Shown: one piece after another, positions 24,332 to 31,927 of the stretch
Numbering within the stretch: the stretch's first letter is position 1
Layout: the number at the start of each line of letters is the position of its first letter
Virus record (IMG/VR): IMGVR_UViG_3300020578_000065
Coordinates: 1 to 64,000 of that record
From: a virus
Length of the DNA: 64,000 bases
Direction: 5' to 3' (one strand)
Translations under genes and position numbers: made by a program
Notes under the pieces: generated by a model
Told to the model about the DNA's origin: nothing
Databases searched by the model: none
The model's input: only the letters and a program-made list of their open reading frames with translations

Positions 24332-26122
24332 TTAAGTTACAGGACTAGCGGGAGTTGCTGGCGCTTCTGGGGCTGCTGGGGCGCCCCCTGCTGGTGCTGT
24401 CGAGACTGGCCCAGCAATATTTTCTGGGCCCAATGCTGCATTGGCTTCTGGAGCTGCTTGTAATTCATCTGCTGAGTCCTGATCACTGGAAATGTCACTA
24501 ATAGATAATCCAACGCTACGCAAATCTTTACCAACAGGTTTATCTAATTTTTCATCAGTATTTTCTTGACGCCATAATTTATCATTCTTGGCCATTTCTT
24601 CCTCAGTTAAGCCTAAAAATCTTTCTAGTGCAAAACGTTTGCTAACATAGGGAAATTGTTGTATCGTATTGAAATTATTAGCGCGAACTGTATCCAGTTC
24701 GCCCTGACGATAACTAGCAAAATTTTGTGGAGGATTAAATTGTAATTTAAATAATCCTGCGTCAATACTAAATCCTCTCCAACGTAAGAATAATTTAAAT
24801 TCTTCGTCGAATCTAGTTGCCATATAACTTTGCAAACGTTCACAATATTGATTAAAACGAAATTCTTGAATTAGTGCAGTACCAACTTTACCATCAGTCA
24901 TAATACGCTCACTGTCATCTGGACCAGTTGGCAAGTATGAACTTGGTACACGCAGACCACGTGCTAATCTATTATTGAAATAACGTAGATCGTCAATCTC
25001 ACCTAAATTTTGTCCGCCCTGCATAACTTCTACACTTGATCCGCGACCATCTGCGGTGACTGGAAAGAAGTAATCCTCATTCATTGAAAGTGGGTTATAT
25101 GTAGCATCTACAATTGATTGTCCGCCATACACGCTGGGAATTCTACGCTGGTGTATTTCGTTTTTAATGCGCTCTACAAATGCCATAGCCATATGACTTG
25201 GCATGTTACCTACGTCAATCTTAAATAATCTGCGTTCTGGAGCACGTTGGACACGATAGATTAATACTGCATCTTCAAGTAATTCTTTTTGTTTGTAAAC
25301 TTTAAATATATTTTCTAATATACTTTGACCGAATGGCCAAAATCTATCAAGTCCTTCAGTAAGACTAAAATGCACTACATGTTTTGAATCAATAGCACTT
25401 TCGCTTTGACCCAATGTAAAACGACTGCCTGTGGTATTATATGGCATTGCAGGTACAGTGTAAGGTGTATTAGTTCCGCCACCTGTTCCGCCTAATCCTG
25501 TTGCAGGATTAGCAGCAAAATCTGTATTTGTTTTTTGTGCTACGCTTAAATTTTGTAGATTAATATTTAAATCTTTTAATACATATTGCTCGGGCAGTTT
25601 GCCTTCGCTTTCATTCACAATAACTTTGATAACTTTTACCATATCCACCCAAAACAATTTAAATGTTTCTGGGTCTCGCACAAAAACTTGATCGCCATAC
25701 TTAATTGTATTACGAAATATTTTAAATATTCTATGGTTAAGTTCGTTTAAATTAGTCCATTGCTGTAGTTGAGTTTTTAATATTTCAACTTCGTGTGGCG
25801 TAGGATCATCTAAGAATTTAAATGCAAATGGTGTTCCATTTTGTTCATTTGTTTGTGTGCTGAATTCTGATATAATGTCTAAACAAGCATTTATTTCAGC
25901 GTCAACATCCATCATTTCATATTGATTGTAACGTTCAATACGATTAGGATGTCCAGTGTAGACTTCAGGAAGTCTACTCATGTAGTTACGGAAACTCCAA
26001 TCTAAATTGCTATTTTGCGTAGTATTATTAACGCTATTGTTCCAGGCACCAGTGTTACTATTAAGACCGCTAATGGGACTACTAATACCCGATTTATTTA
26101 AAAAACGTTTGGTTAATGGCAT
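24332..26122 (-). CDS. gp20: Portal vertex protein (gp20)
   Basis: This 596-aa protein has the T4-type portal pattern: YEMMDVDAEINACLDIISEF (about 67-86) near the start, VHFSLTEGLDRFWPFGQS, VYRVQRAPERRLF (split around 283-295), YGGQSIVDATYNPLSMNEDY and the highly conserved SSVEVMQGGQNLGEIDDLRY, each at its expected order. It forms the dodecameric DNA channel and starts head assembly. The C-terminus is Pro/Ala-rich and low complexity. It is preceded by TATAAATA 17 nt upstream. It follows the tape measure gene by 25 bases on the same strand. Confidence 0.97.
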   Translation of the reverse strand: MPLTKRFLNKSGISSPISGLNSNTGAWNNSVNNTTQNSNLDWSFRNYMSRLPEVYTGHPNRIERYNQYEMMDVDAEINACLDIISEFSTQTNEQNGTPFAFKFLDDPTPHEVEILKTQLQQWTNLNELNHRIFKIFRNTIKYGDQVFVRDPETFKLFWVDMVKVIKVIVNESEGKLPEQYVLKDLNINLQNLSVAQKTNTDFAANPATGLGGTGGGTNTPYTVPAMPYNTTGSRFTLGQSESAIDSKHVVHFSLTEGLDRFWPFGQSILENIFKVYKQKELLEDAVLIYRVQRAPERRLFKIDVGNMPSHMAMAFVERIKNEIHQRRIPSVYGGQSIVDATYNPLSMNEDYFFPVTADGRGSSVEVMQGGQNLGEIDDLRYFNNRLARGLRVPSSYLPTGPDDSERIMTDGKVGTALIQEFRFNQYCERLQSYMATRFDEEFKLFLRWRGFSIDAGLFKLQFNPPQNFASYRQGELDTVRANNFNTIQQFPYVSKRFALERFLGLTEEEMAKNDKLWRQENTDEKLDKPVGKDLRSVGLSISDISSDQDSADELQAAPEANAALGPENIAGPVSTAPAGGAPAAPEAPATPASPVT

Positions 26123-26147: not shown

Positions 26148-29100
26148 TTATGACCTTGATGCACGTAGTATTTTTTCTTGTGTACTTTGTTGATTTTGTA
26201 GTATATCGATTACCCTTTCCAATCTTAAAATATACTCTCCGGTAGATTTAACTGTTTGATCGGAAACATGTCTCATCGCTGTTTCTACTTTTTCTGCTAT
26301 TTGTTGGTTAATACTTTCAGCATTTGTTAAATTACTTTCCTTTGTTTCTTCCATTTTACTTATTTTATCTAAAATAGTATTTGAAATAGATATTTGTTTA
26401 ATTGAATCATTTTTGGTAATTCCTAATGATCCTTCATAAGATGGATTACCCATGGACATTTGACCTAATTGAGCAAGTACACTATTTTTTGCTAATGGCA
26501 CAACAGCTTCAAGACCGTGCATTTCTACATCATATCCAGACTTAGGTCCTTGTACAATACCGCCTTCTGCCAACTGTGCGTGTATATGTCCACCTGTTGA
26601 TTTTTCAGTTCTATTATTGTATTCATCTATTGCGTGGCTAAAGCCCATTGACTTTAGTTGTGCAACAATGTCTCTACCTTCTTTTACACTTGGCGTGCTA
26701 GTTAGTGTAAAATCTACTGCTCTGCCTTTTGTATGTTGACTATTAGGACTGTTCTGTTGATGATATTGATCATTGAATGATGAAAAATATTTAAAGTCAG
26801 GAATAGTATTTTGTATTTGTTGTGATAAATCTATTAACCTACTATCTACTCTTGCCCCGGGAGCCTGAACATCTCCTTGTTTTAGTTTAAGTCCTTCTGC
26901 TATAAGATCGCCGCGATCTACTCCACTTGATGTGCTTGCTCCTGCTCCACCACTTAGTGGAGTTTTGCCGCTTACTAGGTCTGCTAGTATCTGAAGTCTT
27001 TCGTCAGTTACCTTACTAAATGCTGCGGCATGTTCTCTAGTGATTTGAAGTTTTCTTCTTTGTTCTTCTAAATCATCTCTACTTTTAACATATTCTTTTT
27101 CTAATGCATTTAAAGCTTGAGTGCGGGCACTTACGGATTTTTTTGTTGATGAAATTTTATTTTCTAATTCTGCTAATGATTCCTTAGCAGCCTTATCTTC
27201 AATATACTTTTCTTTAGCCATTATTGGGCCAAATTCACTAAACCCAACTACTACATCGCGCTCCCTTGTAAATCTATCGCGCATTTCTTTGGCTTCTTTT
27301 TCAAGTCTTTTTAATTCTGCTTCGTCATTTTTATTCCATGCATCCCATAATTTTTGACGTTTTGAGACATAGTCTTTTGCCATTTCAACTTGGCGTTCAT
27401 CAAATCCTGCTTCTATTTGTTCTACTGTTTTTGATGGCCCAGTAGTTTCTTCTCCAGGTCGCGCTTCGGCACCCGGTACGGCACCAGACTGTGTGGTAAC
27501 TGTGGTATTTTGTCTAGTTGCTTCTGTATTTGCTTCAATTGCTAATTTTAAGAAATCTTCATTGCGTGTTCTTTGGTCTGTTAATGTTTGTGATGCAATC
27601 GTTGCTGCTTCTGTTGCTTCTTTTGCTTTTTCTGTGATTTCATTGCTATCACTAAAGAATGATTTAATACCATCATAGTTTTCAATAACGCCCATTAACC
27701 CGCCGGCTACTGCTCCTAATCCTGTACCTATAGGACCAAAGACAGAACCCATCAGAGCAAATTGTGCCGCCGAACCTATTATTCCACCTGCCGCACTTAA
27801 TCCTTGCGCGCCCTTTGCATCAACAACGTTTAGGCTTTGTAACATTCCTGCGCCTTGTTGTAGGGCATAACCACCTACCATAGCAGCAGCGCCGTGACCT
27901 CCTACCGTAGCCATATGGCCCATACGATCTCTAACACCTGCGCCGCTAGTAGGAATAATTCCAGTAGTATTTTCGTCGCCTAATACTAATCTTCCGAATC
28001 TACCTCGTTGTGGTCCACCTGCTTGAGGTCCAGTAGGAGCAACTATGCCTCCTGTGCCCGGTAATGGCATACCTGTGCCAACGCCGCCTGCCCCTAAAAT
28101 TCTACCACGAGCCTGTGCCTCTGACATGCCTTGGGCTCGCATTTTTCTATATTGTTTTTGCTGAGCCTTAGTCATGCCTGTAGAACCTATAGGCATCATA
28201 GCGCCGCCACCTACACAGTTACATATTTCTTGTAGGTTAATAACTCTTACCAACATAGCATTTGCTGGTGTTTGACCTAACTGACCTTGACCTGGACCAG
28301 TTAAACGACCAAATCTATCTTTGGTATTACTAAATGGGTTTCTACGTGCTTGCGCACTAGTCATAATACCCATAGCATATGTTGCAGCAAAGGCTGCTGC
28401 TGCTAGAACCTTAAAGGAGTCAATAGCATCTTCCATACCAACGGCTAATGGGTTAAAGCGGTCTATTACACGATCTAGGCCTTGCTGGAACTTTCTTTCC
28501 ATTGCTTCCATGTTAGCAACGCCTTCCATTAAGGCGTCCCTAGTAGCCTGCTGTGCATCTACACCTTTTTTACCTGCCTCTAATGCTGCTTGCGCATTTT
28601 TTCTTTGACCAGTGACACCTTGCTCTGATGCCATAGTCATTCGTTCAGTGCTTACTCCTATAGTTTTTGCTAATTCAATACCGGCTGGACCTAATTCAGC
28701 AATGCCGGTACCAAAACGTTGCATAGTCTTGTCAATTGAAGCAGTGTTTTCATTCATTATATTTGCAGTTACAACAGTGCCTTCTACGCCTGCTTCTAAA
28801 TCTCTACCTGCTTTTAATACATCTAGACCGCTTACTTGCAATCGCGCAGTGTATTCAGTCATTACCTTACCGCCGCTGGCAAATGATTGTAGATAGGCTA
28901 TCTGCGCTTCTTTATCAAATCTTGAAATGCCTTTTATAGCAGTTTGTATATTTTCAACTTGTTGACGTATTCTTTTTTCAGTATCAAAGTCTCCGGCTCT
29001 ATTTGCGTCTGATGCTTGTTTTTCAAGCATCATAATTTTCATTTTAATATTTTCATTTGCTGCTGCTAAGTCAAGTGCTGCTTGCTGTTGTTTAATATCG

Positions 29101-29822
29101 GCTCCAGTTAAATCAGCCAATATAACTAAATTCTTCATGTAGGCTTCAGATGATTTTCTTAGATCAGCAACAGGGCGATTTAAGTTTATACCTAATGCGT
29201 TGGCTTGTTGTAAATATTTGCCGGTGTATTCAAAAACTTCTTCAAATGTAAATCCTAATTTTCTAAATCCAGTCATGTTTTTGGTGACGATATCACCAAA
29301 TTTCTGCATACCAGTACCTACACTATCACCGACATTTATAAATGCAGCGCCCGCAGTCTTAGCAGCCTTACCAACAGCCTGCATTTGGAATGTACTACCA
29401 CCTGCGGCTTCTGTCACACCTCTTAATGCTTGTGCTGTAAAATGTGCTTGTGCACCTATATCAGCAATCTCATCAAATCCTCTACTAATTCTATCAGTCT
29501 GAGCAAAGACTTGTTCGATCATAATTGCTGAGGCTTTAGCAGCAGCACCTATACTTTTTCCAAAGACACCCATATCAGAGGTTAGTTGTCCTACAGTATC
29601 AGCCAAGCCTTGGAATAAATTGCCGTATTTGCTGAAACCTTTTTCTGCTGAACTAATGGCGCTAACAAAACTCATGGTTGCCTTGCCGGCACCCTCGAAT
29701 GCAACATTCATAGCCTTGCCAAACTTTGAAGTATCGGCTGTTAGTTTAGATTGGATCTTCGACTGTTCAATAATATAAGCTCTAACGCTTTCTGGGTCGT
29801 TTACGTCATATTTTTCTGCCAT
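26148..29822 (-). CDS. Tape measure protein with internal M15-type peptidase motif
   Basis: This 1224-aa protein is long, Ala/Gly/Met-rich and mostly helical, with hydrophobic segments around residues 470-490 and a Gly/Ala-rich hydrophobic stretch about 640-720, typical of tape measure proteins that set tail length and are ejected ahead of DNA. Around residues 1000-1084 is a compact domain with SQHTKGRAVDF (H1030, D1037) and GGHIHAQL (H1079, H1081), the zinc-ligand layout of M15 D,D-/L,D-peptidases. Such a domain would cut peptidoglycan cross-links during tail penetration (inference). The C-terminal 140 residues are coiled coil. It is divergent from the gp26-like frameshift gene, the usual neighbour of tape measures. 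Confidence 0.85.
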   Translation of the reverse strand: MAEKYDVNDPESVRAYIIEQSKIQSKLTADTSKFGKAMNVAFEGAGKATMSFVSAISSAEKGFSKYGNLFQGLADTVGQLTSDMGVFGKSIGAAAKASAIMIEQVFAQTDRISRGFDEIADIGAQAHFTAQALRGVTEAAGGSTFQMQAVGKAAKTAGAAFINVGDSVGTGMQKFGDIVTKNMTGFRKLGFTFEEVFEYTGKYLQQANALGINLNRPVADLRKSSEAYMKNLVILADLTGADIKQQQAALDLAAANENIKMKIMMLEKQASDANRAGDFDTEKRIRQQVENIQTAIKGISRFDKEAQIAYLQSFASGGKVMTEYTARLQVSGLDVLKAGRDLEAGVEGTVVTANIMNENTASIDKTMQRFGTGIAELGPAGIELAKTIGVSTERMTMASEQGVTGQRKNAQAALEAGKKGVDAQQATRDALMEGVANMEAMERKFQQGLDRVIDRFNPLAVGMEDAIDSFKVLAAAAFAATYAMGIMTSAQARRNPFSNTKDRFGRLTGPGQGQLGQTPANAMLVRVINLQEICNCVGGGAMMPIGSTGMTKAQQKQYRKMRAQGMSEAQARGRILGAGGVGTGMPLPGTGGIVAPTGPQAGGPQRGRFGRLVLGDENTTGIIPTSGAGVRDRMGHMATVGGHGAAAMVGGYALQQGAGMLQSLNVVDAKGAQGLSAAGGIIGSAAQFALMGSVFGPIGTGLGAVAGGLMGVIENYDGIKSFFSDSNEITEKAKEATEAATIASQTLTDQRTRNEDFLKLAIEANTEATRQNTTVTTQSGAVPGAEARPGEETTGPSKTVEQIEAGFDERQVEMAKDYVSKRQKLWDAWNKNDEAELKRLEKEAKEMRDRFTRERDVVVGFSEFGPIMAKEKYIEDKAAKESLAELENKISSTKKSVSARTQALNALEKEYVKSRDDLEEQRRKLQITREHAAAFSKVTDERLQILADLVSGKTPLSGGAGASTSSGVDRGDLIAEGLKLKQGDVQAPGARVDSRLIDLSQQIQNTIPDFKYFSSFNDQYHQQNSPNSQHTKGRAVDFTLTSTPSVKEGRDIVAQLKSMGFSHAIDEYNNRTEKSTGGHIHAQLAEGGIVQGPKSGYDVEMHGLEAVVPLAKNSVLAQLGQMSMGNPSYEGSLGITKNDSIKQISISNTILDKISKMEETKESNLTNAESINQQIAEKVETAMRHVSDQTVKSTGEYILRLERVIDILQNQQSTQEKILRASRS

Positions 29823-29889: not shown

Positions 29890-30714
29890 ATGAATACTAA
29901 TCCTTTAAAACAGTATTTTCGTCGCCCTAGCGTTTATTTAAAACTTCCTAGCGGGGGTCAAGGATATCCAGAAGGTTCTATCACACTTAGTGATTCAGGT
30001 GAACTTCCTGTCTATCCAATGACCGCTATAGATGAAATTACTAGTAAAACTCCAGACGCACTGTTTAATGGTACTGCTGTTGTTGAAATTATTAAAAGTT
30101 GTGTACCAGATATTAAAGATCCATGGGTAATAAAGAATATTGATATTGATAGTATCTTAATTTCTATACGTGCTGCTTCAGGAGCAGGAAGTATAGATGT
30201 GAACACTAAATGCCCAAAGTGTTCAAATGAAGCCATGTATGGTGTTAATTTAGTGAGCGCACTTAATACTATGAAAAGTGGCGATTATAATAAAGAACTA
30301 TCAATAAATGATTTAAAAATTAAGTTTAAACCGTTAGATTATCGTGAATTAAATCGATCTAGTTTAGAACAAATGGAGATACAAAAACTTTTTACATCAA
30401 TTGAAGGCACTGAAGATATAGCACAAAAGAATAAGTTAACAGAACAAGCATTACGTGGCCTTACTGATTTAACTATGGAACTAGTTTCTAAAGCAATAGA
30501 TTATATAAAAACTCCAGAAACCATAGTGTCTCAGCCTGAATATATTTTAGAATTTTTAAAGAATGTAGATATGAAAGATTATGTAACTATACGTGATTAT
30601 AATGCTAGCCTTCGCTCACAGGCATCTTTAAAACCACTCGATATAAAGTGTACGGAGTGTGGGAACGAGTTTGAACAACCGTTTACACTAAACATGTCTG
30701 ATTTTTTCGGCTAA
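29890..30714 (+). CDS. gp26: gp26-like baseplate hub/tail assembly protein (frame-0 product)
   Basis: This 274-aa protein matches the pattern of the T4 baseplate family to which gp26 belongs: a Pro-rich start (FRRPSVYLKLPSGGQGYPEG), YPMTAIDEITSKTPDALFNG, then LISIRAASGAGSIDVNTKCP. Two Cys pairs, C108/C111 and C254/C257, form a probable zinc site. The last codons are part of the slippery sequence T TTT TTC, followed by GGC and TAA, so ribosomes either stop here or slip back one base and add 76 residues. SD GAGG lies 11 bases before the ATG. Location beside the tape measure gene suggests a tail-assembly-chaperone role in addition to, or instead of, a hub role. Confidence 0.85.
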   Translation: MNTNPLKQYFRRPSVYLKLPSGGQGYPEGSITLSDSGELPVYPMTAIDEITSKTPDALFNGTAVVEIIKSCVPDIKDPWVIKNIDIDSILISIRAASGAGSIDVNTKCPKCSNEAMYGVNLVSALNTMKSGDYNKELSINDLKIKFKPLDYRELNRSSLEQMEIQKLFTSIEGTEDIAQKNKLTEQALRGLTDLTMELVSKAIDYIKTPETIVSQPEYILEFLKNVDMKDYVTIRDYNASLRSQASLKPLDIKCTECGNEFEQPFTLNMSDFFG

Positions 30715-30751
30715 GGCTTCTTTATCTCGCTCCTGACGAAATTAAGAAGCT
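30702..30751 (+). promoter_or_regulatory. Programmed -1 ribosomal frameshift element
   Basis: The heptamer TTTTTTC (30702-30708) is in the X XXY YYZ register of the gp26-like frame. One sense codon and the TAA stop (30712-30714) follow. A 7-bp stem, GCTTCTT (30716-30722) with AAGAAGC (30744-30750) and a possible closing G-U pair, starts seven bases after the heptamer, the usual spacer. All three parts of a -1 frameshift signal are present. Confidence 0.85.
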
Positions 30752-30938
30752 CATAGATCAATACGAAAAAGACGTTAATACAATTAAAAAAAATGCTCTA
30801 TCAATAGCATGGTATATGCGTGGTGGTATTTCCTATACAGATGTTTTAAACTTAAGTCAAGAGGAATATGACATGTGTAATAAATTAATTGAGCAAAATC
30901 TTGAAACAACCAAAAAGAGTAATTTACCATTCTTTTAA
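30702..30938 (+). CDS. -1 frame extension of the gp26-like protein (frameshift product)
   Basis: In the -1 frame the sequence is open from 30702 (a TGA lies just before) to the TAA at 30936-30938. After slippage it adds 76 residues: RLRLLYLAPDEIKKLIDQYE, then KKNALSIAWYMRGGISYTD and a C-terminus LETTKKSNLPFF. I recall the YMRGG...LETTKKS.LPFF pattern after gp26-like genes of aquatic T4-like phages. The conserved part begins well before the first in-frame ATG (WYMRGG), so independent initiation would remove it; frameshifting yields a 349-aa fusion. This parallels the G/GT tail assembly chaperones of lambda, which lie beside the tape measure gene. Confidence 0.8.
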   Translation, partial: FFRLRLLYLAPDEIKKLIDQYEKDVNTIKKNALSIAWYMRGGISYTDVLNLSQEEYDMCNKLIEQNLETTKKSNLPFF

Positions 30939-30957
30939 AGTTGTCCTACGGACAACT
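30939..30957 (+). terminator. Hairpin directly after the frameshift gene
   Basis: AGTTGTCC and GGACAACT form a perfect 8-bp stem with the 3-nt loop TAC, starting one base after the stop at 30938. It lacks a clean U-tract, so it may be a weak terminator or a 3'-end stabiliser. Confidence 0.5.
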
Positions 30958-31345: not shown

Positions 31346-31927
31346 TCAATTAAGTTTTGTGCTAACTAAAGTATTGGTATTTGTATCAAGTGTTATAGTA
31401 TTCGACTTGGTGTCTATAGAGATATTAGAGTATTTTTTAACGAAATCTTTATTCAATTTAAAAAAGTGATCAAAATCAATTATTAACCAATCACCCAATT
31501 TATTACTAGTATAATACATAAATTGATCAGTGACCCAAGTGTATTTGCTTTGTACGCATACAAAACGTCCCTTGCGGTTAAATTTCATAAACAGTATATT
31601 AAAATCATCAGATTCAGCTACAGCCATCATTTGTTCTAACCAACCATCTAATACTTTACAGTCGCCCATTAGTACTAAATGAAATGGAAAATCAGCGTAA
31701 CTCTTACATTCTGCATTAAATTTTGGGAAACTCTGTCCTGGAACAATGTCACCCTTAAAACTACGTATTTGGCCTTCGTGTAATATCTGTGTACGAACTT
31801 GATTTTTGCCGCCCACATATGCGCCGCTGCCCGGAGCACGTATAAAACTTTCGCGGTATAGGTTGCTTAAAAAAGCAGCAATTTCACGTTCAAAACTTGA
31901 ACCCTTTTGTTTTTGTGGGCTAGGCAT
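31346..31927 (-). CDS. PD-(D/E)XK-type nuclease, Holliday-junction-resolvase-like
   Basis: This 193-aa protein starts MPSPQKQKGSSFEREIAAFL; the KGSSFERE opening (E13/E15) with APGSGAYVGG, then GD (59-60) and AECK (E73, K75) follow the E-x-D-ExK order of Hjc-like and related PD-(D/E)XK nucleases. The C-terminal half is a beta-rich region with a Thr/Asn-rich tail. It could resolve branched DNA during recombination-dependent replication, a task done in T4 by the unrelated gp49. Neighbouring gp46 and gp47 fit that role. Alternative: a structure-specific or host-DNA nuclease. Confidence 0.65.
   Translation of the reverse strand: MPSPQKQKGSSFEREIAAFLSNLYRESFIRAPGSGAYVGGKNQVRTQILHEGQIRSFKGDIVPGQSFPKFNAECKSYADFPFHLVLMGDCKVLDGWLEQMMAVAESDDFNILFMKFNRKGRFVCVQSKYTWVTDQFMYYTSNKLGDWLIIDFDHFFKLNKDFVKKYSNISIDTKSNTITLDTNTNTLVSTKLN

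Follow-up and report, generated by a model that had tools for sequence, protein, structure and literature searches.

In phage lambda two tail assembly chaperones, the short G and the long GT, are produced from a single gene by means of a -1 frameshift shortly before the short frame ends, and this gene is located beside tail genes. The accessible part of PMC12846349 describes a group of chaperones that also occur in a short and a long form generated by frameshifting, and credits Vladimirov et al. (2022) with poly-T slip sequences in the TAC-N genes of T4-like phages. The same work is cited in the accessible part of PMC10885494 for T4-like phages in which a short gene accompanied by a fused long gene takes the place of frameshifting. 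As far as these sources go, the short and fused long chaperone genes of T4-like phages are already in print, and the poly-T slip sites are credited to the same paper. In the accessible part of a 2010 review (PMC3004832), gp26 and gp51 are presented as hub assembly chaperones, gp51 being essential, of unknown function and absent from the particle; the review also reports genetic support for gp26 within the T4 hub, a location that would be at odds with a chaperone missing from virions. No description of the site analyzed here was met for jumbo phages in the sources seen in our literature search, and Vladimirov et al. (2022) may cover part of it. The present analysis adds a survey of homologous loci, a covarying RNA stem, the split between one-gene and two-gene phages and an exception among the Ackermannviridae.

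The window referred to throughout is the whole stretch of DNA that was analyzed, 64,000 nucleotides of a virus record of 64,985 bases with T4-like gene content. Judging from sequence comparison, one of its genes very likely encodes a tail assembly chaperone of the G/GT type belonging to a T4-like jumbo phage. The features of this gene and its neighbours are collected in Table 1.

Table 1. Features at and around the gp26-like gene, in coordinates of the window.
Feature	Positions	Strand	Evidence
Portal gp20, T4-like	24332-26122	-	PF07230, E 1.3e-97
Divergent neighbour, 1224 aa, probable tape measure	26148-29822	-	Position between portal and gp26-like gene; size
Short form (TAC-N), gp26/gp51-like, 274 aa	29890-30714	+	ORF; T4_baseplate family; PF12322; phrog_150; model
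Slippery heptamer T TTT TTC, in register	30702-30708	+	Sequence; conserved in homologous loci
Frame-0 stop TAA closing the short form	30712-30714	+	Sequence
-1 frame extension, 76 residues and stop; predicted post-shift long form (TAC-NC), 349 aa	30708-30938	+	ORF; homologues
Downstream stem, 5' arm GCTTCTT	30716-30722	+	Clade-conserved pairs 30716-30721
Downstream stem, 3' arm AAGAAGC	30744-30750	+	Clade-conserved pairs 30745-30750
Upper stem (30723-30728/30736-30741) and loop	30723-30741	+	Variable and covarying in clade

A preliminary description of this locus had reported a heptamer in X XXY YYZ register three bases before the stop, a 7-bp stem after a 7-base spacer and a 76-residue -1 extension recognisable ahead of any in-frame ATG, and all of these elements were found again. 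The frame-0 codons at 30700-30714 read GAT TTT TTC GGC TAA. The two stem arms, which begin 7 bases 3' of the heptamer, are by eye fully complementary over 7 bp and both are paired in the computed fold; the window's own upper stem is weak, with 3 of 6 pairs by eye. The -1 frame is open at 30702-30935 and closed by a stop at 30936-30938, comprising FF plus the 76 residues, and its first 38 codons include no ATG, GTG or TTG. Directly 3' of the extension stop there is an inverted repeat, GTTGTCC TAC GGACAAC (30940-30956), perhaps a terminator or a structured 3' end.

The short form exceeds the curated cut-off (24.5) of the Pfam family T4_baseplate (PF12322; E 4.5e-20, 72.7 bits), to which both gp26 and gp51 of T4 belong, and it also matches phrog_150 (baseplate hub; E 5.5e-19). 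Its structure model (pLDDT 87.3) resembles, in the set of predicted viral folds, a baseplate hub assembly protein of the T4-like kind (E 1.1e-23); the fold search against the PDB gave no match at E <= 0.001, and the best hit of the sequence to solved structures (E 0.2) was unusable. The -1 extension was modelled as helical (pLDDT 86.7), and against predicted viral folds it gave nothing at E <= 0.001, the best hit (0.011) being an uncharacterised protein. The short form also contains two CxxC pairs, C108/C111 and C254/C257, which look like a zinc-binding site and are invariant across 13 aligned jumbo phages; C111 is less conserved in a wider set of homologues.

The comparison of homologous loci, proposed in the preliminary description as a check, was made on a set gathered by homology to the short form only. 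IMG/VR was scanned with short-form queries, two of the scans providing the best 80 of 276 and the best 80 of 585 matches, and 12 named jumbo phages were taken from 61 records matching the short form; the matches listed amount to 212 loci, corresponding to 145 distinct junctions and to 83 representatives at <85% identity. Among the matches listed, the heptamer is in register in 212/212 loci (TTTTTTC in 211, TTTTTTT in one) and is followed in 210 by a closed -1 frame of 59-81 codons counted from the slip, the other two being cut by contig ends, while the +1 frame closes after 2-32 codons. The named jumbo phages all have the in-register heptamer (TTTTTTC in 11, TTTTTTT in XacN1) and the -1 extension, and their frame-0 stop comes 3 to 33 bases past the slip; in Munch and BF this stop is 33 bases downstream, yet the conserved part starts at the slip. 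Other long ORFs in the loci of the 83 representatives served as background: 11 of their 218 Phe-Phe pairs are in slippery form, and the last 60 nt of their 3' ends contain an in-register TTTTTTC in 1 case out of 373 and any in-register XXXYYYZ in 25 out of 373. These comparisons confirmed that the observation is genuine and far above chance.

Variation around the slip was followed in the window clade (45 representatives, window included) and in cyanophages (22 representatives). In both sets the entropy is 0 at all seven positions of the heptamer, against means of 1.43 bits (window clade) and 1.38 bits (cyanophages) at the third positions upstream, and all 13 aligned phages (13 of 13) have FF in both frames. 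Counted in frame 0, the codon position that varies most is position 3 before the slip and position 2 after it, which is what translation of the -1 frame would produce.

The predicted stem was also maintained in the window clade. Without gaps, each position of 30716-30721/30745-30750 is paired in 41 to 43 of the 45 sequences; in a MAFFT alignment, which gaps two outlying sequences and is therefore biased towards the stem, the two helices are paired in 98.5% and 93.3% of cells and the upper stem in 65.2%. Compensatory swaps were found (G-C to A-U in four sequences, C-G to U-A in four), and double-sided changes occur in 54 cells vs 21.6 in shuffles. Covariation over all 12 pairs is 0.249, compared with 0.149 in shuffled alignments (0/500 as high) and 0.058-0.163 in slid controls, the latter comparison being somewhat flattering since the structure was picked by inspecting these same sequences. 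The hairpin has a mean z of -2.36 in 44 window-clade sequences (control -0.02), -2.58 in the 22 cyanophages (control -0.26) and a z of -2.09 in the window itself; it is weaker in the named jumbo phages (mean -1.37, 6/11 under -1), reaches -1.02 in the KVP40-like group (n=1) and is not significant in RaK2-like phages (mean -0.36, 1/4 under -1), the control means of the groups ranging from -0.44 to 0.62. Comparison thus shows the codon register, the conservation of the site, the coding of the -1 frame and the covariation of the predicted stem, and the interpretation of the locus as a -1 frameshift withstood the comparisons of heptamer, background, stem and codon variation.

From these data and by analogy we infer, with high confidence in the reading as a whole, the shift, its rate and the chaperone role of a gene that would encode both TAC-N and TAC-NC. 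Most ribosomes would read the gp26-like frame up to the TAA at 30712, releasing the short chaperone of 274 aa. Some would pause before the downstream hairpin while the P site holds the Phe codon TTT and the A site the Phe codon TTC; the two tRNAs would then slip back one base, and translation of the -1 frame would add the 76 residues of a minor product of 349 aa. If the parallel with lambda G/GT holds, the tape measure protein would be coated by the short form and tail parts would be recruited by the long form, and neither form would remain in the virion.

Other explanations of the same junction have to be considered. One possibility is that coupled re-initiation, at the frame-0 stop or close to it, starts translation of the extension as a small gene in its own right; in S-PM2, KVP40 and several jumbo phages the extension is annotated as such a gene. 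An ATG is indeed present at or just past the stop in KVP40, PBECO4, Phosso, Atu_ph07 and S-PM2, and the -1 codons -3 to +11 include an ATG, GTG or TTG in 11/44 window-clade, 16/22 cyanophage, 4/11 named jumbo, 1/4 RaK2-like and 1/1 KVP40-like sequences. Nevertheless, just 3 of 42 such start codons among the representatives have a Shine-Dalgarno-like 4-mer, and the window has no start codon in the stretch of 38 codons mentioned above. Even with a stop as distant as in Munch and BF, conservation sets in at the slip; a fused protein exists in T4, Aeromonas 31 and RB43, and re-initiation has no need of an invariant in-register heptamer or of a covarying stem; we consider this explanation unlikely.

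Slippage of the RNA polymerase on the six-T run, by which the long form would be read in frame from an edited mRNA, appears somewhat less probable still. Longer T runs allow transcriptional slippage, and the site has a run of six or seven T. However, such a process ignores the codon register, which is kept in 212/212 loci among the matches listed; a C closes the T run in 211 of these 212, and a covarying hairpin just 3' fits a ribosomal signal. The invariance of FF in both frames would also be compatible with chance, or with protein constraint on the C-terminus alone, as the origin of Phe-Phe and the open -1 frame, an origin to which we assign a negligible probability considering that the synonymous positions of the heptamer are fixed while others vary, that variation downstream tracks the -1 frame and that slippery Phe-Phe pairs are as scarce in the background as stated above.

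The slip site was also considered in relation to gene number. Twenty-five named phages without a second gene were read at the junction, copy number being one by the Pfam profile in 24 of them and SCTP-2, unmatched by the profile, being counted via a tblastn hit. The -1 extension is present in 25/25 and the in-register heptamer (TTTTTTC, TTTTTTT or TTTTTTG) in 23/25; the two exceptions, UPM 2146 and Vibrio D494, have the extension but no canonical heptamer. In Vibrio D494 the junction is CTT TTC AAG TAA, and its protein, used as scan query, found no relatives. Ackermannviridae-like loci (18/18, 9 distinct) have the -1 extension and no canonical heptamer as well, with the junction GA[AG] ATT TTC AT[TC] TAA. 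These exceptions count against the frameshift reading, as do the weaker hairpins of the named jumbo and RaK2-like phages and the frequent start codons near the slip in cyanophages.

Among the phages counted, two copies occur in T4, Aeromonas 31 and RB43 only, and the products are encoded by paralogous genes, the short gp26 and the fused long gp51. None of these six genes has a slip site with a following -1 extension, and in T4 a slip site is absent both from the gp26 end and from the short-long boundary of gp51. The heptamers found in these genes are an in-register TTTAAAG five codons from the end of the RB43 short gene and a TTTAAAA near the end of its long gene, which open -1 frames of just 9 and 21 codons, respectively, with no extension, and in T4 a TTTTTTG at codon 26 of gp51 and a TTTAAAG at codon 174 of gp26, both away from the boundary; in Aeromonas 31 neither gene has a slip-type heptamer. 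The long gp51-like and short gp26-like genes of RB43 are in tandem with an annotated 8-base overlap, unlike the divergent gp26/gp51 pair of T4 and Aeromonas 31. The suggestion of a hidden T4-family equivalent of G/GT fits these data in that the window gene belongs to the gp26/gp51 family, whereas it does not extend to a shift in T4 itself, whose two genes have no slip site followed by a -1 extension. Fusions in frame 0, anticipated in the preliminary description as evidence against a shift, do exist in these three phages, but each of them has a separate short gene, which speaks for the need of both forms.

In a tree of 27 rows the eight two-gene rows constitute one group (support 93/93), weakly placed (77/53) beside KVP40, phiAS5 and S13, which carry the slip site. 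It is likely that the frameshift was ancestral in the T4 superfamily, that one duplication in the line of T4, Aeromonas 31 and RB43 split the products into gp26 and gp51, and that the Ackermannviridae represent a further state, with the same extension reached via a non-canonical site; since the root of the tree is not fixed and three rows are long-branched, the ancestral frameshift is parsimony and not proof.

The extensions were also compared with gp51 by hhalign profiles. KVP40 and S-PM2 have one T4_baseplate-family copy each, and the cyanophage/KVP40 extensions align with residues 200-249 of T4-type gp51 (97%, E 1.9e-10). Matches of the jumbo-phage extensions to the gp51 C-terminus and to the cyanophage extensions are weak (15-28%, E 6e-4 to 2e-3; against T4-type gp51, 21-27% and E about 1e-3), as is that of the window-clade extension to gp51 (27%, E 7e-4), which aligns at the same C-terminal stretch. 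A single jumbo-phage extension against T4 gp51 reached a probability of 1%, though at the expected stretch, and the jumbo short forms compared directly with T4 gp51 reached 8%.

The gene had been placed beside that of the tape measure protein. A large divergent neighbour is present and, from its place and size, is probably the tape measure protein; this identity was not supported by the searches, as no tape measure family was matched in Pfam or phrog and BLASTP against three positional counterparts gave no match. In Cr30 the extension and one small ORF are followed by a gene annotated as tape measure. Residues 1024-1081 of the 1224-aa neighbour give a weak endolysin/M15-peptidase signal (phrog_894, E 0.004; Pfam M15_4, E 0.24, below the cut-off), with SQHTKGRAVDF and GGHIHA stretches. 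On the other side of the gp26-like gene there are genes with metallophosphoesterase and AAA/SMC matches, taken for gp47 and gp46 by gene order in relatives. A PDDEXK-family endonuclease (31346-31927; PF24608, E 1.3e-22) is encoded near the spot where several relatives carry endonuclease VII or another Holliday junction resolvase.

If the proposed history is true, this family would offer a clear comparative example of gene duplication taking the place of a recoding signal, and T4 gp51 would be seen anew as the long member of a G/GT-type pair, with a ratio and a partner that can be tested. The small ORF after gp26, annotated as hypothetical or as gp51 in the T4-like genomes examined, would probably not be a gene of its own, and the annotations of those genomes would thus be without the long form.

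The closest systems described share different traits with this locus. According to the accessible part of PMC12846349, the frameshifted chaperones of Vandenendeviridae and Andersonviridae also have two forms owing to a -1 shift late in the short frame and are located beside tail genes, and the motif of that group is GTTTTT, unlike the TTTTTTC of the window. No link of the window gene to the chaperone families of lambda, Vandenendeviridae or Andersonviridae was found by Pfam or PDB folds. Phosso, PA5oct, RaK2-like and other T4-like jumbo phages are similar to the window in heptamer and -1 extension (12/12), and in 9/12 also in the order of portal, large gene and divergent gp26-like gene, the portal of Munch being annotated as capsid assembly protein; the neighbours are unlike those of the window in Atu_ph07, Vibrio 2.275 and XacN1, and RaK2-like phages differ in having no clear hairpin. 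In KVP40 and S-PM2, as in the window, an in-register TTTTTTC is followed by one codon, TAA and a -1 extension, which is annotated in these phages as a separate small ORF (baseplate hub assembly catalyst) and is likened in the KVP40 annotation to the C-terminus of T4 gp51; a large ORF comes directly after on the same strand in these phages, whereas the large neighbour is divergent in the window. T4 also has a short and a long form of the same Pfam family, of which the long one carries an additional C-terminal domain, but these are encoded by two divergent paralogous genes, and the window has one gene with a slip site.
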